A DNA stretch of 64,000 nucleotides from a virus, in the IMG/VR virus record IMGVR_UViG_3300025853_000035, positions 87,383-151,382 of that record; one strand, 5' to 3'. The position numbers were made by a program, and so were the translations under genes. Below the pieces are notes generated by a model that made no database searches, was not told the origin of the DNA, and was given only the letters and a program-made list of their open reading frames with translations. How positions within the stretch are numbered: position 1 is the first letter of the stretch; each line of letters begins with the position of its first letter. This document shows, piece after piece, positions 48,166 through 61,042 of this stretch.

Positions 48166-48348
48166 TCACTTTCGGATGTGATTATAGCGTCGGCGCGGCC
48201 TTGTTGATCCCAACTCCTCCGCGATCGCGCGGTCGATGTCGTCAAGGTCTTCGCCGAAAGGGAACCCCTCGGACTCCCCGTCCCCTTGATCCAGCAGCCG
48301 TTCGTAGCGGTCTGGATCAAGGTGGATTTCGTAGTCCGGGGAGGCCAT
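48166..48348 (-). CDS. 60-residue acidic protein coupled to portal
   Basis: The start overlaps the portal stop (TAATG) with GGAGGTAAT upstream. MASPDYEIHLDPDRYERLLDQGDGESEGFPFGEDLDDIDRAIAEEL then a basic tail STRPRRRYNHIRK. Conserved position suggests a head-assembly role, unproven. Confidence 0.6.
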   Translation of the reverse strand: MASPDYEIHLDPDRYERLLDQGDGESEGFPFGEDLDDIDRAIAEELGSTRPRRRYNHIRK

Positions 48349-50129
48349 TACTGATTACCTCCCGCCGGAGCGGCCGGCTTGGGCTTTGCCGGTGGGGTGG
48401 TGCTCCCCTTCTGCATCGCCTGCTGGGCTTGTGCCGGGACCGGAGGAATCTTCGGCTGTTCCTTGGCGACCTTCTCGGCGGACTTTCGGGAAGCCTCGGC
48501 CTGCTCGGCGTCGTGCTCCAGTTCGGTGTCCGCCCGGTCGGTCTCGTTGTCGTCGAGATCGCGCGCCAGTTCGTCCGAGCGCTGGGCGCGGGCATCCGGG
48601 AAGCCATCTTCCCGCGCTTCGAAGTCCGGGTTGTTCGGGAACTGCTTGGCGTCTTCCAGCATCTTGGTGAACATCTCCAGAGTCACATACTCCGGGATGA
48701 CATCCGCCTTGAGGAAGTATTCGTAGATGACCTCGATCGGCAGGATGCCTGCCTGATACATCATCGTGATGGCGCGGAACTCGCGGGCCGCAGCCGCGTC
48801 GATGAGGAAGTCCTGATTGACCCGGAACTCCATCTTGTCGGCCGGCTCGTTCAGCCACGCGGCGATGATGGCCAGAAGCTCGGTGAAGTTCTCGTTCATC
48901 ACCGTGGTGACGTTGAGCAGCAGCGATTGCTCGTTGCGATCCTTCAACTTGATCTGGTTGTCGGACTGGCCGGCGGTCTTGGAATCGCCGAGCAGCCGGC
49001 CGCCGAGTGATGCGACCTGCGTCTCCTTGGCGATCAGCGCGTTCTCCAGAGTCTTGAGACCCTGTCCGTTGAACTCAAGGATGCCGGCCTTCTCGCCGTT
49101 GCCGATTTCCCACACGACCGACGGGCCGATGTGATATTCGTCTTCTTCCTGCCCGCCCGTGACGTAATAGACCGGGTTGGCGGTGTAGAAGCGGCCATGC
49201 TCCAACTGCGCATAGGTCTTGTAATGCGACATGTTGAGCGTGAGGATGTCGAGGACCGGCGGCTTTTCGATGTCCGGCAGGTTGGTGGTGCCGTTGAAGA
49301 AGCGGAACGGGATGCGCTTCATCGGGACGCCGTAGACCATCGGCTTGGTGATGACCGGGGTTTCCGTCAGGTCAGCATCCTCGGCGTCGCGGGCATAGAC
49401 TTCCTGCTGATATTCCCAGCGGAGGTCGGTGTCGTTCCAGATCAGGCGCAGGACGCGATAGCGCGCGAACAACTGGCCGTAGGAGGTGTTGGGCTTGGCT
49501 TCACTGCCCTCGAAGCGGAACAGGCGGCGATCGACCGTGAACTCGCGGAGCAGGATGTAGTCGTGCTCGTCGCGGCCATCGATCTCGACCGTCGTCCAGT
49601 CAAGGATGTTCTCGCAGGTATAGCCGGCAAGGTAGGGCTTCGCGAGCGGGTCGTTGGAATCGGGCTTGTCGGCGAGGATGCCGTAGCGTCCCACCGACAG
49701 CATTTCTTGGCTCACCACCTTGGTGAAGACGCGCAGGGACAGGCCGTCCTTGCTGACCCGCTTGCACAGTTCGGTCAGCTTGGGGCCGGCACGCAGCAGG
49801 CGGGGGTCGCGGCGGAAGATCGAGCCGGTGAGGCCCGTGACCGTGCGATAGACCATGTTGTAGAAGACCGCGCGATCGAGGTAGGCGACATACTGGCCGT
49901 CATCCATGCCTTCCGGCTGGGGCAGATATTCCTTGCCGTGCTTCTTGATCTCGACCTCGCCGATCATGGCGTGGCGGATCGCCTGCCAGATCATGCGCCA
50001 ATTGTTGTAATCCCAATTGGTGTAGAGCGGGGCGGAGGAGAGCAATTCCTGCTTGTTGCGCTTGGTCGCATAGGCGGCCTGACGCTGGGCAAAGGTGCGC
50101 GCCTGTCGTTTGGTGATATTGTCAGCCAA
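48348..50129 (-). CDS. Portal protein (DUF4055 family)
   Basis: 593 residues from a TTG at 50129; the frame stays open to 50330 but the extra residues read as noncoding. Core: NWRMIWQAIRHAMIGEVEIKKHGKEYLPQPEGMDDGQYVAYLDRAVFYNMVYRTVTGLTGSIFRRDP, a DUF4055 portal signature, and a C-terminal acidic/Gln-rich tail (ERDNETDRADTELEHDAEQAEASRK). No Shine-Dalgarno is visible before the TTG, and an intrinsic terminator ends only 18 bp upstream, so the start is uncertain. It forms the dodecameric DNA channel. Confidence 0.85.
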   Translation of the reverse strand: MADNITKRQARTFAQRQAAYATKRNKQELLSSAPLYTNWDYNNWRMIWQAIRHAMIGEVEIKKHGKEYLPQPEGMDDGQYVAYLDRAVFYNMVYRTVTGLTGSIFRRDPRLLRAGPKLTELCKRVSKDGLSLRVFTKVVSQEMLSVGRYGILADKPDSNDPLAKPYLAGYTCENILDWTTVEIDGRDEHDYILLREFTVDRRLFRFEGSEAKPNTSYGQLFARYRVLRLIWNDTDLRWEYQQEVYARDAEDADLTETPVITKPMVYGVPMKRIPFRFFNGTTNLPDIEKPPVLDILTLNMSHYKTYAQLEHGRFYTANPVYYVTGGQEEDEYHIGPSVVWEIGNGEKAGILEFNGQGLKTLENALIAKETQVASLGGRLLGDSKTAGQSDNQIKLKDRNEQSLLLNVTTVMNENFTELLAIIAAWLNEPADKMEFRVNQDFLIDAAAAREFRAITMMYQAGILPIEVIYEYFLKADVIPEYVTLEMFTKMLEDAKQFPNNPDFEAREDGFPDARAQRSDELARDLDDNETDRADTELEHDAEQAEASRKSAEKVAKEQPKIPPVPAQAQQAMQKGSTTPPAKPKPAAPAGGNQ

Positions 50130-50146
50130 GGGGGAGGGAGTCCGGG

Positions 50147-50181
50147 AAAAAGCGGCCGGTGATCCGAAGATCGCCGGCCGC
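50147..50181 (-). terminator. Strong terminator just upstream of portal
   Basis: GCGGCCGG-C-GATC-TTCG-GATC-A-CCGGCCGC followed by TTTTT on the minus strand; a 12-bp stem with a UUCG loop. It would end RNA started at the 50.65-kb promoter before the portal gene. Confidence 0.85.
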
Positions 50182-50636
50182 AGGTCAGGAGGAGACAGGC
50201 TGATGTCGGAGCCACCCGCCGGAGGGAAAAGGACAAAGCCTCCGGGAACTAGGTCAGGAAGGACCGGCCTTTTGCACCATCGGTGTGCCGGACCATGACC
50301 TGAAACAATCCGTGCGCTTCGAGCGGCCACAGGGACCTACCACACATCGGAAAGGGCTTGCCCATCTGGCCCAACGAGGACCGGGCTTACCTACCACATC
50401 CGTCTCCAGCGCTTTGGAGGTTGGAAGCCTTCTCGATCGCATGACGGTTGGGTTCCGGGGGTCAGCCCGACCAAGGGCCTACTGTCCATTCCCGCGCGCC
50501 AAGTGGTCTCGATCTTACGCCTTCCAGCCGCGAAGGGTCTGGGATGCTACATGAATGGGGTTGAGGCTCGCGAGATCGCCTAGTGCGGAAAGGAGACACA
50601 CTTCGGGGGAGATCAGCGCTCATCACGAGCCTCATG
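50152..50636 (-). ncRNA. Candidate ~485-nt structured leader or stand-alone RNA
   Basis: Lies between a good promoter (50643-50671) and the terminator at 50147-50181, with no convincing gene. Visible pairings on the minus strand: GAGGCTCG (50633-50626) with CGAGCCTC (50570-50563); CTCCA/TGGAG near 50420; AGGTC...GACCT enclosing CCGGC...GCCGG near 50300-50250. GATGTGGTAGGT (50400) and GATGTGTGGTAGGT (50348) are a near-repeat. It could be a large phage RNA or a long regulatory leader of the portal. Family not recognised. Confidence 0.45.
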
Positions 50637-50770: not shown

Positions 50771-51580
50771 TCATGCTGCGTAGAGGTAAAGCACCTCTTC
50801 GATCACCGGGTGGCGGACCACGTCGGCGCGGGTCAGGGCGTAATAGCCGATCCGCTCCCAGCGGCGGGGTTCGGCCGGCAGGCGCTCCTCGCCCGTGATG
50901 AAGCCCGGCAGTTCCGGCTCGAACGCTTCCTCCTCGGCTTCCTCGCGCTGCTTGAGACGGCGCGTGATGTCGGCCAGACCGCTGACGGTGGTGCCGAGTT
51001 CCTTGCGATCCCACTGCTCGGTGTCGCCGGTGACGATCATCTTGCTGTTCTCGCCGATGCGGGTCAGCAGCATCTTCATCTGGTCGGCGGTGGCGTTCTG
51101 CATTTCGTCGGCGATGATGATCGCGTTCTTGAACGTGCGGCCACGCATATAGGCGAGTGGCGCGATCTCGATCTCCTCGCGCTGGAGCATCTGCTGGACG
51201 GCGATGACGCCGAAGCATTCGTTCAGCACGTCCACGATCGGGCGGGTCCACGGAGCCATCTTCTCGTTGAGCGTGCCCGGCAGGTAGCCGAGGTCGTCGC
51301 CGGTCGCGACATTGGGGCGGGTAATGATGATCTTGTGGAATTCACCGGCGATGTATTTGTCCGCTGCTTCACGAACGGCCATGTAGGTCTTGCCGGTGCC
51401 GGCCGGCCCCTCGACGATGAGGATGTCGTGCCGCATCTGGCGGAGCTTGCGCAGATAGCCTTTCTGGTTGGGAGTGGAAGCGGTGAGCTTGGGCGGGGCT
51501 TTGTGCTTGGTGGATTCCATCTTCTCTGCGATGTGTGAGGCGTTGGTGGGGAAGAAGGTCTGCTTCTTGTTGCCGGACAC
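50771..51580 (-). CDS. phoH: PhoH-like ATPase
   Basis: 269 residues from a GTG at 51580 with AGGAG upstream; longer frames lack a ribosome site. Walker A GPAGTGKT (58-65), RPNVATGDDLGYLPGTLNEKM, and Walker B IIADEMQNATADQMKMLLTRIG, then VTGDTEQWD. PhoH is common in phages; suggested roles are RNA/DNA helicase activity and phosphate stress. It has its own promoter and terminator. Confidence 0.9.
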   Translation of the reverse strand: MSGNKKQTFFPTNASHIAEKMESTKHKAPPKLTASTPNQKGYLRKLRQMRHDILIVEGPAGTGKTYMAVREAADKYIAGEFHKIIITRPNVATGDDLGYLPGTLNEKMAPWTRPIVDVLNECFGVIAVQQMLQREEIEIAPLAYMRGRTFKNAIIIADEMQNATADQMKMLLTRIGENSKMIVTGDTEQWDRKELGTTVSGLADITRRLKQREEAEEEAFEPELPGFITGEERLPAEPRRWERIGYYALTRADVVRHPVIEEVLYLYAA

Positions 51581-51642
51581 AGAAAACTCCTGTGAGCGTG
51601 TGAGGGAGGGAGCAAAGGAACGCCCATCACTCGGCAAAATTT

Positions 51643-52083: not shown

Positions 52084-52109
52084 GAGCGCGACTCGATCGA
52101 GTCGCGCTC
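52084..52109 (-). terminator. Perfect 26-bp palindromic terminator of the accessory array
   Basis: Self-complementary hairpin from GAGCGCGACTC to GAGTCGCGCTC followed by TTTTTTG on the minus strand; its arms carry GACTC and GAGTC (both GANTC). Confidence 0.85.
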
Positions 52110-52160
52110 AGTGATTCGCTTTCGCTTATGTGATTCGTTTGGTGATTCGTTATGCGATTC
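52090..52160. repeat. Cluster of six GANTC sites
   Basis: GACTC (52090), GAGTC (52099), then GATTCG at 52113, 52132, 52144 and 52156, with 12- to 19-bp spacing. One GANTC per 256 bp is expected by chance. Followed by nested GGCATGGCCATG palindromes (52172-52230). Confidence 0.8.
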
Positions 52161-52171
52161 GTTTACGTTAA

Positions 52172-52231
52172 TGCGATGGCATGGCCATGGGTAGGGCATG
52201 GCCATGCCATGGCTAGGCTATGCCATAGCGC
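52172..52231. repeat. Nested CATGGCCATG palindromes
   Basis: Repeats of GGCATGGCCATG, CCATGCCATGGC and GGCTATGCCATAGC form overlapping inverted repeats at the 3' end of the SciP-like gene. Could fold into a cruciform or bind a protein. Confidence 0.6.
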
Positions 52232-52457
52232 CACGATAGGTCTGGCAACGGGTCACGCGCAGGGCTTGGCGGCCAGCGAAGGCAAGGGAGTCGCGCCATG
52301 CGCCTAGTTCCGCCTCAGTCAGGGCATAGCGTGCCGCCGCGTCCGCCAGCGTGATTGCGCCCGCGTCGATAGCGGCGACAATGGCAATCTTGCGCTTAGG
52401 CGTGAAACGCGCGTTTGAGGCGGGAAGGGCGTTCAAAAGGGTTTCGATGTTGTTCAT
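52218..52457 (-). CDS. SciP-like DUF1153 protein (CtrA inhibitor family)
   Basis: 79 residues, GGAGAC before the ATG. FTPKRKIAIVAAIDAGAITLADAAARYALTEAELGAWRDSL...ALRVTRCQTYR matches the DUF1153 helix-turn-helix found in SciP, the small CtrA inhibitory protein of Alphaproteobacteria. In Caulobacter SciP blocks CtrA-dependent transcription in G1. A phage copy could reset host cell-cycle transcription or act on its own promoters. Last gene of the minus-strand array. Confidence 0.8.
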   Translation of the reverse strand: MNNIETLLNALPASNARFTPKRKIAIVAAIDAGAITLADAAARYALTEAELGAWRDSLAFAGRQALRVTRCQTYRGAMA

Positions 52458-52479
52458 TGCCTGTCTCCATTTGGTTAGT

Positions 52480-52514
52480 GATTCGTTTATCTATTATTCC
52501 ACCGATTCGGTCAA
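52480..52514 (-). promoter_or_regulatory. Array promoter 1 (SciP-like gene)
   Basis: Minus strand TTGACC-GAATCGG..., -10 GATAAA, then CGAATCA; GANTC sites 24 bp apart (52480 and 52504). TTAACCAT-like half-site near 52549. Confidence 0.8.
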
Positions 52515-52607
52515 GCACATTATCCTTAATATCTCATGCCATTTCGTTAACCATATCTGTTAGGGTTAATATCCATGGCTTTGCTGTTAACCCTAACGCC
52601 TAGCAGG

Positions 52608-52727
52608 CACGGGCAGGGAAGGCCGCTAGGGCAGGCAGGGGCACGGGCAGGGAAGGCCGCTAGGGCAGGCAGGGGCACGGGCAGGGAAGGCCGCTAGGGC
52701 AGGCAGGGGCACGGGCAGGGAAGGCCG
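52608..52727. repeat. 34-bp GC-rich tandem repeat, 3.5 copies
   Basis: Unit beginning CACGGGCAGGGAAGGCCGCT, repeated at 52608, 52642 and 52676 plus an 18-bp partial copy. Identical units. The CCGCTAGG core recurs at 53175, 53204 and 53262. No spacer structure, so not CRISPR. Confidence 0.9.
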
Positions 52728-52732
52728 GAATC

Positions 52733-52760
52733 GAAAGGGCCGCCCTAGGGCGGCCCTTTT
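52733..52760. terminator. Bidirectional terminator
   Basis: AAAGGGCCGCCCTAGGGCGGCCCTTTT, after the 92-residue gene. Confidence 0.85.
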
Positions 52761-52773
52761 GGGGTGGCGGCCC

Positions 52774-53052
52774 TTATGCTTGGGCCGCTTTCCACTTGGC
52801 AATTTCAGCCTGCCGACGGGCCTCAAAATCACCCGTTGCGTAGGGGCTGCGGCCATGGGTGAAGCTGGAGTCGGCCCGTTCGATCCGCGACTTTTTCGGC
52901 AGATTGCGGTCGCTGTTATCGCTCAGCATGACTTCACAACGGCCATACTTGTAAAGCGCCGTTTCGTGAGCCTGACGCTCAGAAACCGCCGAAATGAAAG
53001 CCACGAAAACCTTGTTCTTGTAGATTGCGAAGGTGGGGATGTTCTTGGCCAT
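52774..53052 (-). CDS. Hypothetical 92-residue basic protein
   Basis: The ATG at 53052 follows GGAGACAGACA, the standard array leader. MAKNIPTFAIYKNKVFVAFISAVSERQAHETALYKYGRCEVMLSD then a basic, disordered C-terminus (RSPYATGDFEARRQAEIAKWKAAQA). No family recognised. Confidence 0.65.
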   Translation of the reverse strand: MAKNIPTFAIYKNKVFVAFISAVSERQAHETALYKYGRCEVMLSDNSDRNLPKKSRIERADSSFTHGRSPYATGDFEARRQAEIAKWKAAQA

Positions 53053-53083
53053 TGTCTGTCTCCGTTTGCGTCTCGATGACTTA

Positions 53084-53112
53084 CTTCTAGGGCCGATTTT
53101 TGATTCGGTCAA
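53084..53112 (-). promoter_or_regulatory. Array promoter 2
   Basis: TTGACC (53112-53107), 17-bp spacer starting GAATC, TAGAAG (53089-53084). Single GANTC. Confidence 0.8.
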
Positions 53113-53169
53113 ACACTTTCTGCAATTATTTTGGCGCGTCACTTCCTCCACCAAAACAGGCGGATTCAT

Positions 53170-53332
53170 GATCTAGGCCGCTAGGGCGGGCGCGTCATGG
53201 CCCGCTAGGGGCGGCGCTGGGCGTCGATAGGCCGCGCCGGGCAGTCTGGCCGCGCTTTGCCGCTAGGCGCGCTCCTTGGGCGTCTGGGCGGCTCCTACGG
53301 GCGCAAAATGACCGCGATCCATAATTAGGCCC
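53170..53332. other. GC-rich non-coding spacer
   Basis: About 160 bp with four CGCTAGG motifs (53175-53265) and no gene; downstream of the 46-residue membrane protein. No hairpin terminator is obvious. Confidence 0.5.
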
Positions 53333-53473
53333 TCAGAAACCGGCTTGCAGCTTGCTGAAAACCTCATTGACGAAATCCGCCACTTCCATCGCCACGAACA
53401 CGGCACCGACCGCGACCGCAATCTTTACAGAAAATCCGCCGATCAGCAGGCCAACAATTCGGTTCATGTCCAT
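53333..53473 (-). CDS. 46-residue single-span membrane protein
   Basis: ATG at 53473 after GGAGACAGACC. MDMNRIVGLLIGGFSVKIAVAVGAVFVAMEVADFVNEVFSKLQAGF: one hydrophobic span (GLLIGGFSVKIAVAVGAVFVAM) and a short amphipathic tail. Could be an inner-membrane effector. Unknown. Confidence 0.6.
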   Translation of the reverse strand: MDMNRIVGLLIGGFSVKIAVAVGAVFVAMEVADFVNEVFSKLQAGF

Positions 53474-53495
53474 GGTCTGTCTCCTTTCCAGACAT

Positions 53496-53524
53496 AGGAT
53501 GGACGCGGCGACCGATTCGGTCAA
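53496..53524 (-). promoter_or_regulatory. Array promoter 3
   Basis: TTGACC (53524-53519), 17-bp spacer, CATCCT (53501-53496). Single GANTC; followed upstream by GGTTAAC and TTAACCTTAAC (53580). Confidence 0.75.
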
Positions 53525-53612
53525 GCACTTTCTCCACTTATTTTTCGACTCGTTATGGTTAACGCGGCTGGGCAATTTATTAACCTTAACAGATTGTTGG
53601 GGCGCAAAAAAA

Positions 53613-53630
53613 GGGAGGCTTTCGCCTCCC
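53613..53630 (-). terminator. Array terminator
   Basis: GGGAGGCTTTCGCCTCCC followed by TTTTTTTGCGCC on the minus strand; the standard array hairpin. Confidence 0.85.
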
Positions 53631-53638
53631 TCCTTGGC

Positions 53639-53983
53639 TTAATGGCCGTAGTTGCAGCCGATATAGTAGAGCCGCCCGGCGACCAGATAAGCGATGTCCG
53701 CCGATCCGCAGCAGCCCGCATTAGCGGCTTCCTCATAGGCCGCCCATTCGGTGGCGCGGTCGGCGAAGGCGGCGCGATAGTTGTCGCGATAATCCTCGTC
53801 CGCAACCGCGTCATGGAAAAGCGCGTGCGCCTCTTCCACCGTGGCAACCGCTGCCAGCGCGCGGACCATGGTGCGCTCGCCCTCGAACGCGAGGAGGGCC
53901 GCAGCCGCCTCCGCAGCGGCGAGGTCCGCAGCCTCGATCACCGAAGCGGAGCAGTTGGAGCGGAGGAAGAGGAAGTAGTTCAT
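53639..53983 (-). CDS. Hypothetical 114-residue alanine-rich protein
   Basis: MNYFLFLRSNCSASVIEAADLAAAEAAAALLAFEGERTMVRALAAVATVEEAHALFHDAVADEDYRDNYRAAFADRATEWAAYEEAANAG then GCCGSADIAYLVAGRLYYIG. Helical with an alanine-rich core; Cys pair near the end. No family recognised. Confidence 0.65.
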   Translation of the reverse strand: MNYFLFLRSNCSASVIEAADLAAAEAAAALLAFEGERTMVRALAAVATVEEAHALFHDAVADEDYRDNYRAAFADRATEWAAYEEAANAGCCGSADIAYLVAGRLYYIGCNYGH

Positions 53984-54014
53984 GGCTTGTCTCCTAGCCG
54001 GGTTGATGAGTGAT

Positions 54015-54042
54015 GATTCTCATATTCCACCGATTCGGTCAA
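54015..54042 (-). promoter_or_regulatory. Array promoter 4
   Basis: TTGACC (54042-54037), spacer GAATCGGTGGAATATGA, then GAATCA 17 bp after; two GANTC sites 17 bp apart. Confidence 0.75.
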
Positions 54043-54055
54043 GCACTTTGTTTGC

Positions 54056-54256
54056 CTATTGGTATTGTCTTTTTGATGCGGACATAAGCACAACATGCCC
54101 AGCCATTTTCGCAATCATGCCCAGCGCCAGCAGGCTGGCGGCGTTCATCTCCAGCGGCGTTTCTGGCCATGTCATATCAGGGGCGATTGTCGTGGCCGCC
54201 CAGACGCAAAGCAAGGCGAAGGCATAAAGGGCGGCGATCAGGATGGCTTTAGGCAT
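54056..54256 (-). CDS. 66-residue two-span membrane protein
   Basis: ATG at 54256 after GGAGACAATACC, 19 bp downstream of the 75-residue gene with no promoter between, so co-transcribed. MPKAILIAALYAFALLCVWAATTIAPDM and LLALGMIAKMAGHVVLM are two likely membrane helices. Unknown. Confidence 0.6.
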   Translation of the reverse strand: MPKAILIAALYAFALLCVWAATTIAPDMTWPETPLEMNAASLLALGMIAKMAGHVVLMSASKRQYQ

Positions 54257-54275
54257 GGTATTGTCTCCGGTTCGA

Positions 54276-54503
54276 TCAGGCGGCCAAAGGCGCGGCATAT
54301 TCAGCGAAAAGCGATTCCGCTTCCGCGAGCGTCAAGCCCTTGGCGACGCATTCCCAATCGTGGACCATTGCGCCCGAAACGGACTCGGCCCGATAGATCG
54401 GCGCGGCCTGCACCCACTTAGGCGCGCGGATGGAAACGGCGAAACCCGCCGCGCGCTGCACGATCATGACATTTTCGTTAGCTGACTTGCGAATGACTTT
54501 CAT
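54276..54503 (-). CDS. Hypothetical 75-residue protein
   Basis: ATG at 54503 after GGAGACAGACC. MKVIRKSANENVMIVQRAAGFAVSIRAPKWVQAAPIYRAESVSGAMVHDWECVAKGLTLAEAESLFAEYAA: small beta-hairpin plus helix. No family recognised. Confidence 0.6.
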   Translation of the reverse strand: MKVIRKSANENVMIVQRAAGFAVSIRAPKWVQAAPIYRAESVSGAMVHDWECVAKGLTLAEAESLFAEYAAPLAA

Positions 54504-54537
54504 GGTCTGTCTCCATCGGCGCTGCGCCGTTGGACGG

Positions 54538-54566
54538 TAAGTCACATACTCCACCGATTCGGTCAA
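54538..54566 (-). promoter_or_regulatory. Array promoter 5
   Basis: TTGACC (54566-54561), 17-bp spacer, weak GACTTA. Single GANTC. Confidence 0.7.
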
Positions 54567-54641
54567 GCACTTTCGCAAGAAAAACGACGCCACAAGGGAA
54601 GCTGGCGTTAACCTTAACAGATTGTTACCACCAAAAGAAAA

Positions 54642-54655
54642 GGGCCTTTCGGCCC
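54642..54655 (-). terminator. Array terminator
   Basis: GGGCCTTTCGGCCC followed by TTTTC on the minus strand. TTAACCTTAAC lies at 54608. Confidence 0.8.
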
Positions 54656-54660
54656 TTCGC

Positions 54661-55047
54661 TCAATATGGCGAGCAACCATATTTGGCCCATTCCTTCACG
54701 GCGATTCCGCGCTTCCATAGGGCGTGTTCGCGATCCTGCGCATCCTCGCAGCCTTCCGCCTCAAACCACCACCGGAGGGCGTCCGCACGGGCGATTCCGT
54801 GGTCGTGCTGGAGGTCGGTCAATTCCTCCTCCAGCTTGGCGATAGCGGCGGCAGAACGGACGGCCTCGCGGTCATTCTCTTCCGCGATCATCTTGCCCAA
54901 TTCATCGAATGCGACGGCGTAGTCCTCCAGCGTGACAGGGCAATGCACGCCGCCATTGCGCGGGCGGAAACCGTAGGCGTCTTTGTGCATGTCCGAATAG
55001 ATGACGGCGGCCTGTTCGAGGTCGGTGAGTGCGTTCCAGTCGGTCAT
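54661..55047 (-). CDS. Hypothetical 128-residue helical protein
   Basis: MTDWNALTDLEQAAVIYSDMHKDAYGFRPRNG...DYAVAFDELGKMIAEENDREAVRSAAAIAKLEEELTDLQHDHG...WKRGIAVKEWAKYG. A helical hairpin with a charged coiled-coil-like segment. The arrangement recalls small phage-conserved proteins of unknown function. Confidence 0.65.
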   Translation of the reverse strand: MTDWNALTDLEQAAVIYSDMHKDAYGFRPRNGGVHCPVTLEDYAVAFDELGKMIAEENDREAVRSAAAIAKLEEELTDLQHDHGIARADALRWWFEAEGCEDAQDREHALWKRGIAVKEWAKYGCSPY

Positions 55048-55082
55048 TGTCTGTCTCCTCCGGCACCGCGCCGGTGACTTCC

Positions 55083-55111
55083 TTCTAGAGTCGTTCCAGC
55101 GATTCGGTCAA
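55083..55111 (-). promoter_or_regulatory. Array promoter 6
   Basis: TTGACC (55111-55106), 17-bp spacer, CTAGAA (55088-55083). GANTC at the -35 side (GATTC) and in the spacer (GAGTC, 55088-55092). Confidence 0.75.
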
Positions 55112-55168
55112 GCACTTTGTTCGGTAGATAGTTGTTAAGGTTAACGCCGGGCCGGGCACAAAAGAAAA

Positions 55169-55182
55169 GGGCCTTTCGGCCC
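55169..55182 (-). terminator. Array terminator
   Basis: GGGCCTTTCGGCCC followed by TTTTC on the minus strand. Confidence 0.8.
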
Positions 55183-55187
55183 TTCCC

Positions 55188-55811
55188 TTAATCCTCCCTC
55201 CTTCCGTCTTCCCGGAAGGTGTAACCGTTCGCCTCCATAGCGTCGGCAATCTGTTCATCGCTTCGCAAATATTCGTCCTCGTCCCGGAGGCGATCATAGA
55301 GCCACCGGCCCAAATCCTTGGCGATCTCCTTGATCTCCTCGGCACGTTCATGCGCGCCGTCGGTCCAATCAAATTCGCTGGGTTCCGCTTGCGTGCCGTA
55401 ATAGTGATGATAGGTGACGACATAGGCGGAACGGTAGAAGGTCCGGGCGTGCAAGGCCGCGATGCGGTCCGCTAGGGCGTGTAAGACCGTATCCTGCGGC
55501 GCATAGTCCCGCACGGCCTTTGCCATCCCCTTGGCATAGGTCATCGTGCCTTCAAAGGCCGCATAATCGCTTTGCGAGTAGCCCAGCGACCACCAGATGT
55601 TTGCATCGTAGCGCGTTGCGCCCGACATCAGGGTGACAGGGTGCGTCTTGAAACTGACGCCCATAAGCTCGGCGATCGTCTTGAAGTCGTCGATCGTGGA
55701 TTCATAATCCGTCTCGTCGCGGCAATCCAGCCACCACTGCTTGGCGGTCTCCTTGGCCGAGTCGCTCAATTCGTCATAGGTGTAAAGCGTGATCGTCGTT
55801 TCGGTCGGCAT
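55188..55811 (-). CDS. Hypothetical 207-residue protein
   Basis: ATG at 55811. MPTETTITLYTYDELSDSAKETAKQWWLDCRDETDYESTIDDFKTIAELMGVSFKTHPVTLMSGATRYDANIWWSLGYSQSDYAAFEG. Members of this family are common in phages and sometimes labelled as antitoxin-like without proof. An acidic C-terminus (DEDEYLRSDEQIADAMEANG) closes it. Confidence 0.6.
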   Translation of the reverse strand: MPTETTITLYTYDELSDSAKETAKQWWLDCRDETDYESTIDDFKTIAELMGVSFKTHPVTLMSGATRYDANIWWSLGYSQSDYAAFEGTMTYAKGMAKAVRDYAPQDTVLHALADRIAALHARTFYRSAYVVTYHHYYGTQAEPSEFDWTDGAHERAEEIKEIAKDLGRWLYDRLRDEDEYLRSDEQIADAMEANGYTFREDGRRED

Positions 55812-55844
55812 TGTCTGTCTCCTCCGCATTGGTGCGGTAGGGCT

Positions 55845-55873
55845 GGAGTAGAGGGCTAAAGTGATTCGGTCAA
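55845..55873 (-). promoter_or_regulatory. Array promoter 7
   Basis: TTGACC (55873-55868), 17-bp spacer, TACTCC (55850-55845). Single GANTC. Confidence 0.75.
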
Positions 55874-55952
55874 GCACTTATTCCAGATCAAGAATGGTTA
55901 ACGGGCTGGGGCGATTTCGTTAAGGTTAACGGATGAGGCGGGCGGAAGAAAA

Positions 55953-55970
55953 GGGAGGCTTGCGCCTCCC
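55953..55970 (-). terminator. Array terminator
   Basis: GGGAGGCTTGCGCCTCCC followed by TTTTC on the minus strand. Confidence 0.8.
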
Positions 55971-55975
55971 TTCGG

Positions 55976-56320
55976 TCATTCCGCCGGGGAGTAAATTACC
56001 CGCCCTTCGTCGCGCAGCTTCTCCAGATCGCATTCGATAGCGTAATTGTTGAAATACCAGCAGCGGCCGATGATTTCGTTTGCGCCGTCGTCGTGCGTCG
56101 TCATTTCCTCCGCAACGCATGGGGCGGAAGTCAGCCCGACGAAAGGATTTGCCTGCCCCGCGTCAAAGTGGGTGAAAGAGCCATTGCAGGCGTAAGACTC
56201 GAACAAGTCCGCCATGACAAGCCAGTAATTGCGGTCGGCGTGGTCGGCGATATATTCCCGCGCTTCTTCGTCGGCGGTGATCTCCAGATCGCCATTTTCG
56301 AGGATCGTGCATTCAATCAT
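55976..56320 (-). CDS. Hypothetical 114-residue protein
   Basis: ATG at 56320. MIECTILENGDLEITADEEAREYIADHADRNYWLVMADLFESYACNGSFTHFDAGQANPFVGLTSAPCVAEEM...EIIGRCWYFNNYAIECDLEKLRDEG. Beta-rich, acidic, with scattered cysteines. Unrecognised. Confidence 0.6.
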   Translation of the reverse strand: MIECTILENGDLEITADEEAREYIADHADRNYWLVMADLFESYACNGSFTHFDAGQANPFVGLTSAPCVAEEMTTHDDGANEIIGRCWYFNNYAIECDLEKLRDEGRVIYSPAE

Positions 56321-56339
56321 GGTCTGTCTCCGTTGTGAT

Positions 56340-56373
56340 GATTCGTTTTGGCATAATCCATCGATTCGGGCAA
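56340..56373 (-). promoter_or_regulatory. Array promoter 8
   Basis: TTGCCC variant (56373-56368), spacer GAATCGATGGATTATGC, CAAAAC, then GAATC (56340). Two GANTC sites. Confidence 0.7.
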
Positions 56374-56395
56374 CCACTTTATCCATAAAAAGAAA

Positions 56396-56420
56396 GCCCC
56401 GGCGCGCTAGGCTCCGGGGC
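56396..56420 (-). terminator. Terminator with long loop
   Basis: GCCCCGG...CCGGGGC followed by TTTCTTTTT on the minus strand, after the mini membrane peptide. Confidence 0.75.
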
Positions 56421-56425
56421 GATGA

Positions 56426-56491
56426 TTAGAAGCTGGCCGCAACGGTAATCAGCAGCAGGCCGGTAAAGAGGCGGGAAAGGGCTATCAGCAT
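56426..56491 (-). CDS. 21-residue membrane mini-peptide
   Basis: The ATG overlaps the stop of the upstream 101-residue gene (TGATG). MLIALSRLFTGLLLITVAASF is one hydrophobic span. A very similar peptide occurs at 57802. Coupled translation supports it being real; function unknown. Confidence 0.45.
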   Translation of the reverse strand: MLIALSRLFTGLLLITVAASF

Positions 56492-56796
56492 CAGGCCGCC
56501 GCGTCCTCCTCTTCGTCAAACTCCTCGGCAAGATAGACGCCGTGGCCGCTATGTTCCACCTGCCCGGCGGGCTGGATCGTCATGGCCGGGCTAAGGCTCA
56601 TTTCGGGCATGTCAGGGCCGAACGCTTCGCCGGTGATGTAAAGGCCGTCCCCGACCTCCTGCCGCCTGTTGCTGAACTCGATAGCCGCCCCGTCAGCGGT
56701 GAGGGCGTCGGCCTTGGCCTGCGCCTCCTCCAGCGTGTCGGCCAAAATATAGAGGCTGGCGCAAATCATGATTTCGGTCTGGAACAATTTCTGCAT
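56491..56796 (-). CDS. Hypothetical 101-residue acidic protein
   Basis: MQKLFQTEIMICASLYILADTLEEAQAKADALTADGAAIEFSNRRQEVGDGLYITGEAFGPDMPEMSLSPAMTIQPAG...YLAEEFDEEEDAAA. No promoter separates it from the 99-residue gene upstream (27-bp gap), so both form one unit. Unknown. Confidence 0.6.
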   Translation of the reverse strand: MQKLFQTEIMICASLYILADTLEEAQAKADALTADGAAIEFSNRRQEVGDGLYITGEAFGPDMPEMSLSPAMTIQPAGQVEHSGHGVYLAEEFDEEEDAAA

Positions 56797-56823
56797 GGTC
56801 TGTCTCCTTGCGCGGTGTGCTGA

Positions 56824-57123
56824 TTAGTGGTGGCGGCGGTAGGCGGCGTTCAGGTCGCCATAGGGATCGTAGCGCACGGCGCGAGCCACTGCCCGGCGCT
56901 TCGCCTCCTCCAACGTCTCGCAATATTCCCCGCCGTGATAGCCGCCCAACTGTGTGTTGGCAAAGTGGACGGCGTAGGGGTGCATCTCATTGTGCGGAAG
57001 GTGGCGGATAACCACCGCGCCCGGCGCGGTCGCGCCTCGTCCGGCCATACCATAGAACTGGACGGATTCCTCTTTGGCCTTGGCAATCAGGGCAGGGCTT
57101 CCGTGGGTGAAAGGTGCGGTCAT
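56824..57123 (-). CDS. Hypothetical 99-residue basic protein
   Basis: MTAPFTHGSPALIAKAKEESVQFYGMAGRGATAPGAVVIRHLPHNEMHPYAVHFANTQLGGYHGGEYCETLEEAKRRAVARAVRYDPYGD. Glycine-loop and alternating helices suggest a nucleotide-binding-sized fold but no P-loop. Unknown. Confidence 0.6.
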   Translation of the reverse strand: MTAPFTHGSPALIAKAKEESVQFYGMAGRGATAPGAVVIRHLPHNEMHPYAVHFANTQLGGYHGGEYCETLEEAKRRAVARAVRYDPYGDLNAAYRRHH

Positions 57124-57152
57124 TGTCTGTCTCCCTCCGGCTGGGTGCCGGT

Positions 57153-57187
57153 GATTCGTAACTAGGGGAGGGGACCGATTCGGTCAA
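57153..57187 (-). promoter_or_regulatory. Array promoter 9
   Basis: TTGACC (57187-57182), 17-bp spacer GAATCGGTCCCC..., TAGTTA (57164-57159), then CGAATCA. Two GANTC sites 24 bp apart. Confidence 0.8.
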
Positions 57188-57266
57188 TCACTTATTCCAG
57201 AAAAGAAATGGTTAACGGGCTGGGGCTGGGCGTTAAGGTTAACAGGAAGGGCAAGCGAAAGAAAAA

Positions 57267-57284
57267 GGGAGGCTTTCGCCTCCC
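57267..57284 (-). terminator. Array terminator
   Basis: GGGAGGCTTTCGCCTCCC followed by TTTTTC on the minus strand. Confidence 0.8.
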
Positions 57285-57288
57285 TCCC

Positions 57289-57651
57289 TTAGCGTGCCCA
57301 ATAGGTTACGCCGTTGAACTCGCCGCTTGTGTAATCCATCTGGAGGGCGCGGGCGGCGGCCTCCCAATCGATATGACAGGCAGGCCATGCGGACTCCTTC
57401 GGGATCGCGCCGATCTCCTCCGCCAACTCCTCGGCATAGTCCTTGAAATAGGAGTCACGAATGAAGGTGACAGGGAACCACGAATTTTCCCATTCATGAT
57501 CGCCGCCGTATCCCCGGAACTGCTCGATAAAGGCGCGCATGGCGGCGGCCTCTTCCTTTTCGTCGCTTTCCGGGTCCGCCTCGATCTCCTCGATCAGGTC
57601 GATGATGTCGCGGATGTCCATAACGTCTTGATATTCGTCGATGGTGGTCAT
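57289..57651 (-). CDS. ArdA-like antirestriction protein candidate
   Basis: 120 residues from the ATG at 57651. The C-terminal half (FIRDSYFKDYAEELAEEIGAI...HIDWEAAARALQMDYTSGEFNGVTYWAR) resembles the ArdA end motif (DWEAxARxLxxDY...). The N-terminus (DVMDIRDIIDLIEEIEAD) is acidic and helical. ArdA proteins mimic B-DNA to block restriction enzymes. Shorter than ArdA (about 165), so assignment is tentative. Confidence 0.5.
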   Translation of the reverse strand: MTTIDEYQDVMDIRDIIDLIEEIEADPESDEKEEAAAMRAFIEQFRGYGGDHEWENSWFPVTFIRDSYFKDYAEELAEEIGAIPKESAWPACHIDWEAAARALQMDYTSGEFNGVTYWAR

Positions 57652-57681
57652 TCGGTCTGTCTCCGTCGGCTCTGTGCCGGT

Positions 57682-57716
57682 GATTCGGAGATAGGGGAGG
57701 GGACCGATTCGGTCAA
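57682..57716 (-). promoter_or_regulatory. Array promoter 10
   Basis: TTGACC (57716-57711), 17-bp spacer, TATCTC (57693-57688), then CGAATCA; two GANTC sites. Confidence 0.8.
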
Positions 57717-57794
57717 GCACTTATTCCAGAAAAGAAATGGTTAACGGGCTGGGCCGGGGCGTTAACCTTAACGAATGATTACCAGCGAAAGAAA

Positions 57795-57817
57795 CGCCGC
57801 CCTATTTGAGGGCGGCG
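57795..57817 (-). terminator. Terminator overlapping the mini-peptide stop
   Basis: CGCCGCCC-N7-GGGCGGCG with TTTCTTTC on the minus strand; the hairpin spans the stop codon of the 24-residue peptide. Confidence 0.75.
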
Positions 57818-57876
57818 GCTATGAGGATAAGGAAAAAGCCGGTTATCGCCCCGGCTATGGCGCGTAGCAGCGTCAT
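57802..57876 (-). CDS. 24-residue membrane mini-peptide
   Basis: The ATG overlaps the stop of the 136-residue gene (ATGA). MTLLRAIAGAITGFFLILIAAALK is a short basic-hydrophobic peptide closely like the 21-residue one at 56426. Probably membrane-inserted. Confidence 0.45.
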   Translation of the reverse strand: MTLLRAIAGAITGFFLILIAAALK

Positions 57877-58283
57877 CGGCTTGCCAGATCATCAAAGCGG
57901 CGTTGCATCAGGTCCGATACGTTGCCGTCGTCGGGCATGTCCGCAAAAGTGATGTCGGCAAAGTCATCCCACACCCAATCATAGCCTTGCTTCCACTCGC
58001 CCAGCACGGCGGGATTGCCCCGGCCCGTCTCGACAAATTCGCGGAAGGCGTCGCGGACATAGGTTTCCCCGTCGCCGGTCAGGGGATTGTCAAGGAAGGT
58101 CCGACAATGGCCGCAATGCTGCGGGCAATCCGCTTCCCCGCCGCCTTCCGAATAGGGGCCTTGCGGGAAGGAGTTGGAGTCCGGCTCATGCCCATCGGCC
58201 GCGCCTGAACGGATCAGGTCAGCCTTGATGTCGGTCGCGCAATTGTCGCAATAGATGTCGGATTGAAAGATGTAGGCGTCCAC
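57873..58283 (-). CDS. Hypothetical zinc-ribbon protein
   Basis: 136 residues from a GTG at 58283. CDNC (12-15) and CPQHCGHC provide a plausible zinc site; between lies SFPQGPYSEGGGEADCPQHCGHCRTFLDNPLTGDG, a pattern seen in many phage small proteins. C-terminus acidic. Unknown function. Confidence 0.65.
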   Translation of the reverse strand: MDAYIFQSDIYCDNCATDIKADLIRSGAADGHEPDSNSFPQGPYSEGGGEADCPQHCGHCRTFLDNPLTGDGETYVRDAFREFVETGRGNPAVLGEWKQGYDWVWDDFADITFADMPDDGNVSDLMQRRFDDLASR

Positions 58284-58308
58284 GGTCTGTCTCCTAGTTG
58301 CCTAGCCT

Positions 58309-58336
58309 GATTCGCATAGTCCACTGATTCGGTCAA
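58309..58336 (-). promoter_or_regulatory. Array promoter 11
   Basis: TTGACC (58336-58331), shorter spacing, second GANTC at 58309, 17 bp from the first. Confidence 0.7.
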
Positions 58337-58411
58337 GCACTTTGTTCGGCGACAAGTTAACAAAGGGTGCGATTTTGTTAAGGTTAACGGAAGCGTCCGG
58401 GTAAGGAAAAG

Positions 58412-58430
58412 GGGAGGCGTTTACCTTCCC
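58412..58430 (-). terminator. Weaker array terminator
   Basis: GGGAGG...CCTTCCC with imperfect stem, CTTTTCC on the minus strand. GTTAAC and TTAAGGTTAAC lie at 58356-58388. Confidence 0.6.
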
Positions 58431-58438
58431 TCTTTGGT

Positions 58439-58945
58439 TCATCCCCACATCCACACCTTGCCCGACTCATGGTCAAAGCCAAATTCAAGCCGGTTTGCCC
58501 GCGTCGCGTCGTTCAACCGTTCCAGACAATCGGCGTTGCCGTCGTCGGTGAAGGATACGCCATGCCCTACGGAAAGCATGTAGAGGGTGGAGCCGATGCG
58601 CTCATATGACAGGCCGTTGCTGGTATAGCGCAGGCCTTCGCTTCCGGGTTCCAGATCAAGCGCCGATTCGATGTCGGCGGCGTTGGCGGTCATGAACGCT
58701 TCGCAATAGGCCTTGCAGCGCTGATAGGTTTCGTCGTCCAGCGTGTAGATTGTGCCGGTGTCGCCTTCCTCGCGCTCTTCCTCGCAAGCTTCATCCATCT
58801 CGCTATATTGCAAATCCTGCAACATGGTCGCGACGAAGTCGGCAAGGATCGGGCAGGCCTTAAAGTCAGCCTTGCGGGCGGCTTCCCGTTCGCGGGTGGC
58901 GTCGTCGATTTCGTGGAAGCCGGTATAGTCGCGGGCGTCGGGCAT
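58439..58945 (-). CDS. Hypothetical 168-residue protein
   Basis: MPDARDYTGFHEIDDATREREAARKADFKACPILADFVATMLQDLQYSEMDEACEEEREEGDTGTIYTLDDETYQRCKAYCEAFM...SYERIGSTLYMLSVGHGVSFTDDG. Long charged helix then beta part; an acidic stretch may mimic DNA. No family recognised. Confidence 0.6.
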   Translation of the reverse strand: MPDARDYTGFHEIDDATREREAARKADFKACPILADFVATMLQDLQYSEMDEACEEEREEGDTGTIYTLDDETYQRCKAYCEAFMTANAADIESALDLEPGSEGLRYTSNGLSYERIGSTLYMLSVGHGVSFTDDGNADCLERLNDATRANRLEFGFDHESGKVWMWG

Positions 58946-58974
58946 TGTCTGTCTCCTCCGGCTTGCTTGCCGGT

Positions 58975-59009
58975 GATTCGTTTCTGAAACATTCCGCTGA
59001 TTCGGTCAA
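58975..59009 (-). promoter_or_regulatory. Array promoter 12
   Basis: TTGACC (59009-59004), 17-bp spacer, CAGAAA (58986-58981), CGAATCA; two GANTC sites. Confidence 0.8.
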
Positions 59010-59088
59010 GCACATATTCCAGATTTAGATGGTTAACGGATCGCTCGATTTCGTTAAGGTTAACAAATGGTAGTGGTCAAAAAATTTG

Positions 59089-59117
59089 GTTAACGGGGAG
59101 GGCTTCCCCGTTAACCT
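59089..59117 (-). terminator. Terminator built from TTAAC motifs
   Basis: GGTTAACGGGGA...TCCCCGTTAACC, a long perfect stem followed by AAATTTTTTG on the minus strand. Confidence 0.8.
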
Positions 59118-59123
59118 TTGGTG

Positions 59124-59516
59124 TCAGGCCATTTCCTCCTCGGCCTTGTCGATGACGGGCCGGAGTTCTTCCCAGATCGCTTCCGCGAAGTCGTTGGCGC
59201 TGTAGTCGCTGATAACGTCATAGCCGTCATTCCCATAGACCAGATACCACTGGCCCAACAGGGTGCCTTCCGCGTCGCGGGCGACGATCCGGTCCTCGTC
59301 GGTCGTGAAGAGCGCGCCGATGATGGTGCCCTTGTCGGTCGAGCGCTTGACGGTCCATTCCTCGCCATCGTTGACGCTGACAGCGCAGCCCTTGGCCAGC
59401 AGGGCGTCCACCAGTGCGGCGCAGATGCGGCCTTCGATGCGGATGCGCTTGGCGAGGCGCTTTTCGCCCTTGGCTTCGGCGTTCTGGGCGTAGATGGTGA
59501 AGTTTCCGTAGTGCAT
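59124..59516 (-). CDS. Hypothetical 130-residue protein
   Basis: MHYGNFTIYAQNAEAKGEKRLAKRIRIEGRICAALVDALLAKGCAVSVNDGEEWTVKRSTDKGTIIGALFTTDEDRIVARDAEG...DYSANDFAEAIWEELRPVIDKAEEEM. Mixed alpha/beta with a basic N-terminus. Unrecognised. Confidence 0.6.
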   Translation of the reverse strand: MHYGNFTIYAQNAEAKGEKRLAKRIRIEGRICAALVDALLAKGCAVSVNDGEEWTVKRSTDKGTIIGALFTTDEDRIVARDAEGTLLGQWYLVYGNDGYDVISDYSANDFAEAIWEELRPVIDKAEEEMA

Positions 59517-59536
59517 CGTCTGTCTCCGTTTGCGGT

Positions 59537-59572
59537 GATTCGTTCTTAGGACGGATCAGGTGATTCGGTCAA
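59537..59572 (-). promoter_or_regulatory. Array promoter 13
   Basis: TTGACC (59572-59567), GAATC spacer, CTAAGA, CGAATCA; GANTC sites 25 bp apart. Confidence 0.75.
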
Positions 59573-59651
59573 GCACTTCCTCCATTTTTCTTTTGGTTAA
59601 CTTTTCCCGGCCGTTCGTTAAGGTTAACAGACGCGGGCGGTCAAAGAAAAA

Positions 59652-59669
59652 GGGAGGCTTTCGCCTCCC
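59652..59669 (-). terminator. Array terminator
   Basis: GGGAGGCTTTCGCCTCCC followed by TTTTTC on the minus strand. Confidence 0.8.
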
Positions 59670-59673
59670 TCTC

Positions 59674-60066
59674 TTACTCGCCGAACCAGTAGCAGCGGAT
59701 ATAGGTTTCGATTGCGGAGTCTTCCTCGTTCGTCGTGGTGAGGTCGGTCCACGGCGTGCCCCAATCCTGCCATTGCAGCCGCCCATAGCTGGGCTGACAG
59801 TAGGCGTCCAGATCGCCCACGATGCGAAGGGCAGGGCCGCCGGTCGAAAGGAGGATTTCAAATTCCTCCGGCGTGGCGTCTTCCTTCGCGCCGGGGGAAT
59901 ACCAGCCAGTCCGAACGGAAACCGAAAGGGCGTCTTGCTGGCATTCCTCGCGGAACGTGTCCGCCGCGTCGTGGTCGCCTTCCTGCTCCGCTGCGGTGAG
60001 GGCCTGCGCCTTCTCCACGATGTCGGAAAGCCATGCTTTGGCGTTGGCGATTGCGTGCTGAGACAT
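59674..60066 (-). CDS. Hypothetical 130-residue protein
   Basis: MSQHAIANAKAWLSDIVEKAQALTAAEQEGDHDAADTFREECQQDALSVSVRTGWYSPGAKEDATPEEFEILLSTGGPALRIVGDLD...LQWQDWGTPWTDL. A phage-conserved protein; function unknown. Downstream of the 43-residue gene without its own promoter. Confidence 0.65.
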   Translation of the reverse strand: MSQHAIANAKAWLSDIVEKAQALTAAEQEGDHDAADTFREECQQDALSVSVRTGWYSPGAKEDATPEEFEILLSTGGPALRIVGDLDAYCQPSYGRLQWQDWGTPWTDLTTTNEEDSAIETYIRCYWFGE

Positions 60067-60077
60067 TGCCGGTCCTT

Positions 60078-60209
60078 TCAGGCGAAAGTGAAGAGGTTGC
60101 GGCGGGCGTTCTTCGCCTTGCGCTGCGCCTTGCGGTCGCGCTTGTCGGCGCGCTCAACGCGCTTGAGTTCGCGGCCATAGCCCTTCTTGTCTTCCAGAAT
60201 GATCTTCAT
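60078..60209 (-). CDS. 43-residue highly basic protein
   Basis: ATG at 60209. MKIILEDKKGYGRELKRVERADKRDRKAQRKAKNARRNLFTFA; lysine/arginine-rich, helical. Possibly nucleic-acid binding. Shares its promoter with the 130-residue gene. Confidence 0.55.
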   Translation of the reverse strand: MKIILEDKKGYGRELKRVERADKRDRKAQRKAKNARRNLFTFA

Positions 60210-60238
60210 GGTGTCTGTCTCCTCCGCTTGATTGCGGT

Positions 60239-60273
60239 GATTCGTTTCTGGACCATTTAGATGATTCGGTCAA
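60239..60273 (-). promoter_or_regulatory. Array promoter 14
   Basis: TTGACC (60273-60268), 17-bp spacer, CAGAAA (60250-60245), CGAATCA; two GANTC sites. Confidence 0.8.
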
Positions 60274-60353
60274 GCACTTATTCCAGAAAAAGAATGGTTA
60301 ACTGGCTGGGGCGGTTTCGTTAAGGTTAACGCAGGTGGCCGGGCGAAAGAAAA

Positions 60354-60372
60354 GGGAGGCGCTGGGCCTCCC
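60354..60372 (-). terminator. Array terminator
   Basis: GGGAGGC...GCCTCCC followed by TTTTC on the minus strand. Confidence 0.8.
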
Positions 60373-60376
60373 TTGT

Positions 60377-60634
60377 TCAAACGCCGCGCCCGTGCGGACC
60401 AGCCTGCTCGCAGAACACGGCCCGGCCTTGCTCCGCGTTGGCCTTGGTCAGCCATGCGCAATCTTCGCCGGTCAGGCTATGGTCGATGACATATTCGTCC
60501 GCGCCCCGCGTCTCGATCAGCAGCCACAAGTCGGGCGCTTGTGCGATCTCCGGCGGGGCAGAGGGCTGGGCCTCCCCGCAGGCCGCCAGCGGCAGCAGGG
60601 AGACCATGGCGAGCGCGATGACAAGGCGGCTCAT
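60377..60634 (-). CDS. Small lipoprotein
   Basis: 85 residues. MSRLVIALAMVSLLPLAAC is a signal peptide with lipobox LAAC; mature part contains LIETRGADEYVIDHSLTGEDCAWLTKANAEQGRAVFCEQAG with two cysteines. It might act at the envelope, for example in superinfection exclusion; unproven. ATGA-coupled. Confidence 0.65.
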   Translation of the reverse strand: MSRLVIALAMVSLLPLAACGEAQPSAPPEIAQAPDLWLLIETRGADEYVIDHSLTGEDCAWLTKANAEQGRAVFCEQAGPHGRGV

Positions 60635-60873
60635 GCGTTCGCCTCAGCGGCGGCGTTCAGCGCCTCCTTGGCGTCGTCCGGGAAGCGATCCCAGAAGTCG
60701 GCGACGCAATCCATGCCGTAGCAGGGTTCTTCCGACACCTCCGGCGAAGGGGCCTTGTAATCGGCCACACAACCCCAAAGCATCTGATACAGGTCGGCGT
60801 TGATGCCGTCCCAGCATTCAGCCACTTCGTCCGGGCGGACGACTTCAAGAGCGGGGTGAGGTGCGATGGTCAT
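60631..60873 (-). CDS. Hypothetical 80-residue protein
   Basis: MTIAPHPALEVVRPDEVAECWDGINADLYQMLWGCVADYKAPSPEVSEEPCYGMDCVADFWDRFPDDAKEALNAAAEANA. Acidic and helical with several cysteines. It overlaps the lipoprotein start. Unknown. Confidence 0.6.
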   Translation of the reverse strand: MTIAPHPALEVVRPDEVAECWDGINADLYQMLWGCVADYKAPSPEVSEEPCYGMDCVADFWDRFPDDAKEALNAAAEANA

Positions 60874-60905
60874 TTCGTCTGTCTCCGTGCGGCTTGCTTG
60901 CCGCT

Positions 60906-60940
60906 GATTCGGGGATAGACAAGGGGACCGATTCGGTCAA
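60906..60940 (-). promoter_or_regulatory. Array promoter 15
   Basis: TTGACC (60940-60935), 17-bp spacer, TATCCC (60917-60912), CGAATCA; two GANTC sites. Confidence 0.8.
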
Positions 60941-61037: not shown

Positions 61038-61042
61038 TCCAG

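Follow-up and report, generated by a model that had tools for sequence, protein, structure and literature searches.

We examined the final 64 kb of a 151,382-bp IMG/VR phage record, hereafter the window. Its portal protein (48348-50330, minus strand; phrog_145, E 1.4e-103) is 78.7% identical to that of Erythrobacter phage XM05, 74.6% to that of vB_EliS-L02 and 70% to that of Sphingobium phage Lacusarx. L02 and Lacusarx are phiCbK-like siphoviruses of Sphingomonadales (PMC9127768, PMC9437464), and on the strength of these three relatives the window phage probably infects a marine sphingomonad. Read along the minus strand, gene order runs from TerL (contig 4107-5870) through an array of small ORFs (contig 2546-1, then window 63934-52218) to a PhoH-like gene that borders the array (50771-51637, minus strand; PF02562, E 1.2e-68) and on to the portal gene. 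The window part of this accessory array (52218-63934, minus strand) consists of small ORFs, most with a TTGACC/GANTC promoter of their own, and TTAAC elements precede the majority of these promoters; the array extends into contig 1-2546, and the contig opens within it. A poly-G run at the contig end (window about 63940-64000) is probably a sequencing or assembly artefact. XM05 has the same gene order, 42 small genes being annotated in the interval from its PhoH to its TerL, and phiCbK carries a 10-kb terminal repeat at the equivalent place, starting at the TerL end (PMC3556154). The window phage likewise has, between TerL and the structural genes, a block of small genes in which CtrA-type sites are concentrated. 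The last array gene ahead of PhoH and portal, at the array end where the initial annotation had placed it, is an ORF of the DUF1153 (SciP) family (52218-52457, minus strand).

This 79-aa ORF has an ATG start, contains its stop within those coordinates, and is preceded by a Shine-Dalgarno sequence (GGAGACAGGC ATG, with GGAGAC as the SD). Its promoter (52486-52514, minus strand) comprises a -35 hexamer TTGACC (52514-52509), a 17-nt spacer and a -10 hexamer GATAAA (52491-52486). The same architecture is found in 91 array promoters collected from the window and its relatives, for which a 17-nt spacing and a -10 of TAGAAA type gave the best fit. One GANTC site lies just 3' of the -35 hexamer (GATTC, 52504-52508; CGATTCG on the plus strand, of YGAKTCK type) and another around the expected start site (52480-52484; TGATTCG on the plus strand). 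About 33 nt upstream of TTGACC is TTAACCAT, an element of CtrA half-site type that is inverted relative to the gene (52547-52554, plus strand; genome position 139929), followed further 5' by another TTAA element (GTTAATAT, 52565-52572) and by a 34-bp tandem repeat in 3.6 perfect copies (52606-52727). A Rho-independent terminator with an 11-bp stem and T6 (52084-52109, minus strand) ends the unit; with its own Shine-Dalgarno sequence, its own promoter and this strong terminator, the gene is predicted to be transcribed as a unit of its own. Four YGATTCG (GANTC) sites fall within 50 bp between the stop codon and the terminator (52112-52162); part of this cluster is a 12-bp tandem repeat, and the 151-kb contig holds no second such cluster.

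The product is basic (pI about 10) and matches PF06627 (DUF1153) at 63.8 bits (E 1.6e-17, Pfam) against a curated cut-off of 23.5 bits. The ORF lies exactly at the position first given for it and contains the DUF1153 motifs quoted there. The runner-up Pfam family, HTH_Tnp_1, scored 19.8 bits, under its own cut-off, and with DUF1153 44 bits above it we rejected a transposase HTH or a chance similarity. A phmmer search of the PDB returned 2oa4 (E 3.5e-11) and 2jrt (E 1.9e-10), both NMR structures of DUF1153 proteins and the only clear solved relatives of the ORF by sequence. AF2 models of the protein, of modest confidence (pLDDT 66-67), begin with a short helix at the N-terminus and continue with helices at residues 20-31, 37-44 and 48-77. 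Foldseek searches with the model ranked 2jrt first (prob 1.00) and 2oa4 second (prob 0.82), at weak E-values, in keeping with the fold of the solved DUF1153 proteins. The 79-aa ORF is a true DUF1153 protein.

The family match does not extend over the whole profile. ORF residues 9-75 align with positions 20-87 of the 87 in PF06627, and because the protein lacks the N-terminal arm (the first ~19 profile positions) or has it in degenerate form, the "full DUF1153 pattern" of the initial annotation was an overstatement. In many cellular lineages, Sphingomonadales included, the SciP arm reads (V)IGPxGxPLTxxDLPPPxT(K/R)RW. Phage copies begin at the RF/RY position or slightly ahead of it: the arm is absent in XM05 and in the L014-type proteins and degenerate in the window protein (LPASNARF), and the hallmark PLTxxDLPPPxT is intact in no phage copy in the alignment. 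Two loss-of-function changes of Caulobacter sciP are T24I and T65A (PMC4241560). Mapped by the 41-residue distance in other cellular SciP proteins, rather than on the Caulobacter sequence itself, T24 would fall in the PLT of the lost arm and T65 at the threonine of LTxEE in the HTH core, a residue that is retained as T47 in the window protein and as S or T in its relatives.

The gene recurs in other phages. Three other IMG/VR contigs encode an identical protein, the gene and its flanks being identical over 640 bp except at one contig end. XM05_97, a DUF1153 protein of 64 aa without annotation, shares 42% identity with that of the window, and eight IMG/VR contigs carry a 70-aa version, in every case downstream of an array-type promoter. 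Within the array, the gene occupies different places in the window phage and in XM05. PF06627 scores of these relatives were 65.0 bits for XM05, 71.5 for L014 and 39.8 for L022, the last a 77.6-kb contig of an unrelated phage in which a 66-aa DUF1153 ORF has a DnaB-type helicase and a terminase nearby. The end of that ORF overlaps a 149-aa GcrA-like ORF (L022:5977-6623; PF07750, 33.3 bits, cut-off 26.9), placing homologues of two host cell-cycle regulators side by side. We left out of the phage set the IMG/VR proteins that closely resemble cellular SciP (L216-L219), because some of them are encoded next to a contig end and could be of host origin. DUF1153 had no match in L02, Lacusarx, RXM, Cp1R7A-A1, Ccr34, Colossus or RcXuper; since L02, Lacusarx and RXM possess the same kind of array, the gene is dispensable. 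A GcrA match was present in Ccr34, with none in the window phage, XM05, Lacusarx or L02, and a CcrM-type N6_N4_Mtase was found in none of the 12 phage records searched. In the window phage, then, the profiles found neither GcrA nor a CcrM-type methyltransferase.

To place the phage proteins among cellular ones, we scanned cellular genomes with an alignment of two phage copies, which gave no matches; cellular relatives were therefore collected with a Rhodobacterales query and by searching the whole class for the family. By family search DUF1153 is present in 114 of 290 alphaproteobacterial genomes, and among 14 control genomes it matched in Caulobacter only. In a tree of 92 rows all six from phages cluster together (89/89), nested within the Sphingomonadales branch of SciP (85/99), so that the phage copies group with cellular SciP; the enclosing branch holds Novosphingobium and Sphingomonas plasmid copies and four further genomes. 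As the alignment has few columns and the phage branches are long, this placement is a lean and not proof. The residues DRSG(M/Q)QGLR(V/I)TR(I/L)QHYR are common to phage and Sphingomonadales copies, and phage DUF1153 likely derives from a Sphingomonadales scip. Pairwise dN/dS among four related phage copies was 0.03-0.39, indicating purifying selection in close relatives; the window protein is too distant for dN/dS. Plasmids of Novosphingobium, Sphingomonas and Paracoccus carry DUF1153 as well. Copies on Novosphingobium and Sphingomonas plasmids (L201, L202, L203 and L206) are full length, and three of these four plasmids were typed as conjugative.

The array around the gene is built from recurring promoters. 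TTGAC(C/T)GAATC promoters number 18 in the window, all on the minus strand between 52.5 and 63.9 kb, with four more at the contig start, and 76 of the 91 promoters from the window and relatives have a second GANTC at +28 to +31. The initial annotation had noted GANTC-bearing promoters next to the DUF1153 gene and TTAAC-containing promoters in the phage, and both hold: two GANTC sites lie in the gene's own promoter and pairs occur array-wide, and the TTAAC elements resemble CtrA half-sites and are enriched in the array. Specifically, TTAACCAT occurs 13 times in the 15-kb array against 3 times in the other 136 kb, an enrichment of about 34-fold, and GTTAACCTTAAC 18 times against 9 elsewhere in the genome; Markov-shuffled array sequence never came near the observed counts of either. 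CGAATC(A/G) is the complement of YGATTCG, which is covered by the extended GcrA motif YGAKTCK (PMC7987155), and CGAATC[AG] was found 48 times in the array and 30 times elsewhere in the genome. The pattern GTTAACCAT-N5-35-TTGAC gave 71 matches in 8 of the 12 phage records, L02, Lacusarx and RXM among them, and its reversed-pattern control gave none in the same 12; GTTAACCAT followed by TTGAC was absent from the Caulobacter and Mesorhizobium phages tested.

The array promoters (window 52480-63934, contig 1-2546) share a compound layout of GTTAA(CC/GG)TTAAC, GTTAACCAT, TTGACCGAATC, a TAGAAA-type -10 and CGAATCA, which is conserved among Sphingomonadales phiCbK-like phages. The stretch that separates TerL from the first gene of the array (L023:2634-3953) holds nine copies of GTTAACCTTAAC, five of them spaced 27 bp apart (contig 3834-3942). 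Lacusarx has been listed among phages with an unusual distribution of CtrA sites (Mascolo 2022, PMC9437464), and in Sphingomonas phage MMDA13 a TGCGTTAACCAT-type repeat overlaps predicted CtrA sites (PMC9437464).

The array departs from Caulobacter promoters in several respects. It contains no full CtrA site of the form TTAA-N7-TTAA. The recognition motif of SciP, GCGAC or GCGNC-N5-GNCGC, is known for Caulobacter only (PMC4287350), and GCGAC is unenriched in the array (ratio 1.0). The TTAACCAT box lies some 25 nt upstream of the -35 hexamer, whereas in CtrA-activated promoters of Caulobacter the CtrA box is mostly on the -35 (PMC11264516). Among the 91 promoters, those of the DUF1153 gene in L014, L019, L020 and L021 are the only ones with TTAACCAT in the spacer between the -35 and -10 hexamers. 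TTAA-N6-TTAA, a form termed a full CtrA motif at podJ (PMC4287350), occurs only at the DUF1153 units of XM05, L014, L019 and L021. These cases are few, their sequences are related to one another, and neither form is present at the DUF1153 promoter of the window itself.

We propose, with just short of even confidence, that a SciP core derived from Sphingomonadales tunes down the CtrA-wired promoters of the phage and perhaps also of its host, probably as feedback. A phiCbK-like sphingomonad phage would have taken scip from its host lineage, cut it to the HTH core and the conserved GLRVTRxQxYR tail, and placed it among the small genes that separate TerL from PhoH/portal, the site of the terminal repeat in phiCbK. 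The array promoters are of host sigma-70 type, with GANTC sites in pairs and CtrA-type TTAAC boxes further 5', so that host CtrA, and possibly GcrA/CcrM, probably sets their output. The phage SciP core would most likely join CtrA and/or DNA both there and at CtrA targets of the host, lowering CtrA-dependent transcription. Homology, likely origin, gene anatomy, promoter motifs and, in the close relatives, purifying selection are shown by the sequences; we infer that host CtrA binds TTAACCAT, that the phage product contacts CtrA or DNA, and in which direction it acts. Such wiring would repeat that of the host, in which CtrA switches on sciP and SciP restrains CtrA-activated genes: Caulobacter sciP is CtrA-activated (PMC7987155), and its product, which binds both CtrA and DNA (GCGAC), represses the promoters that CtrA activates (PMC4287350). 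CtrA~P also activates phiCbK and Cp1R7A-A1 promoters with predicted CtrA sites (PMC9437464).

This proposal is supported by the DUF1153 match, the tree group, the motif enrichment, the purifying selection and the overlap with GcrA in L022, as well as by the spacer TTAACCAT and TTAA-N6-TTAA forms at DUF1153 units and by the activation of phiCbK promoters by CtrA~P. It is weakened by the loss of the arm, with the T24 that Caulobacter needs (PMC4241560), by the unenriched GCGAC, by the absence of TTAA-N7-TTAA, by TTAACCAT lying off the -35, by a window promoter that lacks the special forms, and by a gene that is dispensable. Of the roles suggested initially, tuning of the phage's own TTAAC promoters fits best; the lost arm and the unenriched GCGAC weaken a simple reading of the protein as SciP. 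A self-contained CtrA-SciP negative feedback within the phage, timing its programme to the motility/CtrA state of the host, is conceivable at somewhat less than an even chance.

Loss of the arm would also suit a protein that acts as a decoy against host SciP, the arm-less core occupying CtrA/SciP sites without repressing, so that CtrA-driven phage promoters stay on. Every phage copy keeps the core without the T24-bearing arm, T24I being a loss-of-function allele in Caulobacter (PMC4241560), and genomes in the Sphingomonadales branch encode their own full-length SciP. The arm is, however, variable among cellular copies as well, and the T65-equivalent T47 is retained; we consider such a decoy unlikely. 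The chances also seem low for a repressor independent of CtrA, whose HTH core would bind an element of the array's own, such as GTTAACCTTAAC, and time or switch off the array. A basic HTH protein (pI 10) amid many copies of a 12-bp element 5' of promoters, with weak similarity to HTH_Tnp_1, would fit that description, but the same promoter arrays occur in phages without DUF1153, and so a different protein, most simply one of the host, must recognise the elements.

SciP family membership could point instead to manipulation of the host cell cycle, with CtrA targets blocked and division, or flagella and pili, halted. In Sphingomonas melonis CtrA controls motility and biofilm (Francez-Charlot 2015, as cited in PMC7200025 and PMC9437464), yet it is dispensable there (PMC7200025), so that a division block is unlikely and motility may be affected, and outside Caulobacterales and Hyphomicrobiales, hence in this order, CtrA has no known cell-cycle role and governs motility and related traits (PMC9437464). 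The earlier suggestion that the protein blocks division is accordingly unsupported, and host cell-cycle manipulation as a whole strikes us as very unlikely. A captured host gene kept as selfish or neutral cargo, with no present role in infection, might be missing from several close relatives and differ in array position between the window and XM05, as this one does. Purifying selection in close relatives, a promoter and terminator of its own and presence in several phage lineages speak against cargo, which we regard as extremely improbable.

In our literature search no paper treated DUF1153 and phage together, and the SciP-and-phage literature it retrieved, in the parts accessible, describes no phage-encoded SciP; a phage-encoded SciP thus appears to be unreported. 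Phage homologues of GcrA and CcrM are already known (PMC3556154, PMC9437464), and host CtrA controls the small terminal-repeat genes of phiCbK-like phages, for which "lytic deferment" is a speculative role (PMC9437464). A SciP homologue in the CtrA-wired region of XM05 (host Erythrobacter sp. JL475) and of its metagenomic relatives supplies a named, testable player, a candidate antagonist or mimic acting on CtrA. If this is true, no phage-encoded SciP would have preceded it, and a CtrA-wired region would for the first time have a gene of predictable function; counted with phage GcrA and CcrM, it would bring to three the arms of the alphaproteobacterial circuit that viruses have captured. The phage may have borrowed part of its host's control circuit.

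Compared with cellular SciP, the phage proteins share the HTH core with its R(W/F)xxRK start and (S/T)xxE(F/L)xxW helix, as well as the C-terminal G(L)RVTRxQxYR. They differ from it in length (64-79 aa against ~90-125 aa), in the lost or degenerate VIGPxGxPLTxxDLPPPxT arm, and in the lack of GCGAC enrichment around the gene. Plasmid DUF1153 of Sphingomonadales and Rhodobacterales likewise places the SciP family on mobile DNA, but the Sphingomonadales plasmid proteins, unlike that of the window, are full length with the arm. The phiCbK-like Caulobacter phages (Gill 2012, PMC3556154) also carry a copy of a host cell-cycle regulator; theirs is GcrA, without DUF1153 in those tested, and the window phage shows the converse. 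Closest in layout are the CtrA-regulated terminal repeats of phiCbK-like phages, Lacusarx included (Mascolo 2022, PMC9437464), which also combine a block of small genes with intergenic CtrA-type sites. The CtrA-regulated genes there have no function predicted by homology, whereas the block of the window phage encodes a homologue of a CtrA antagonist.
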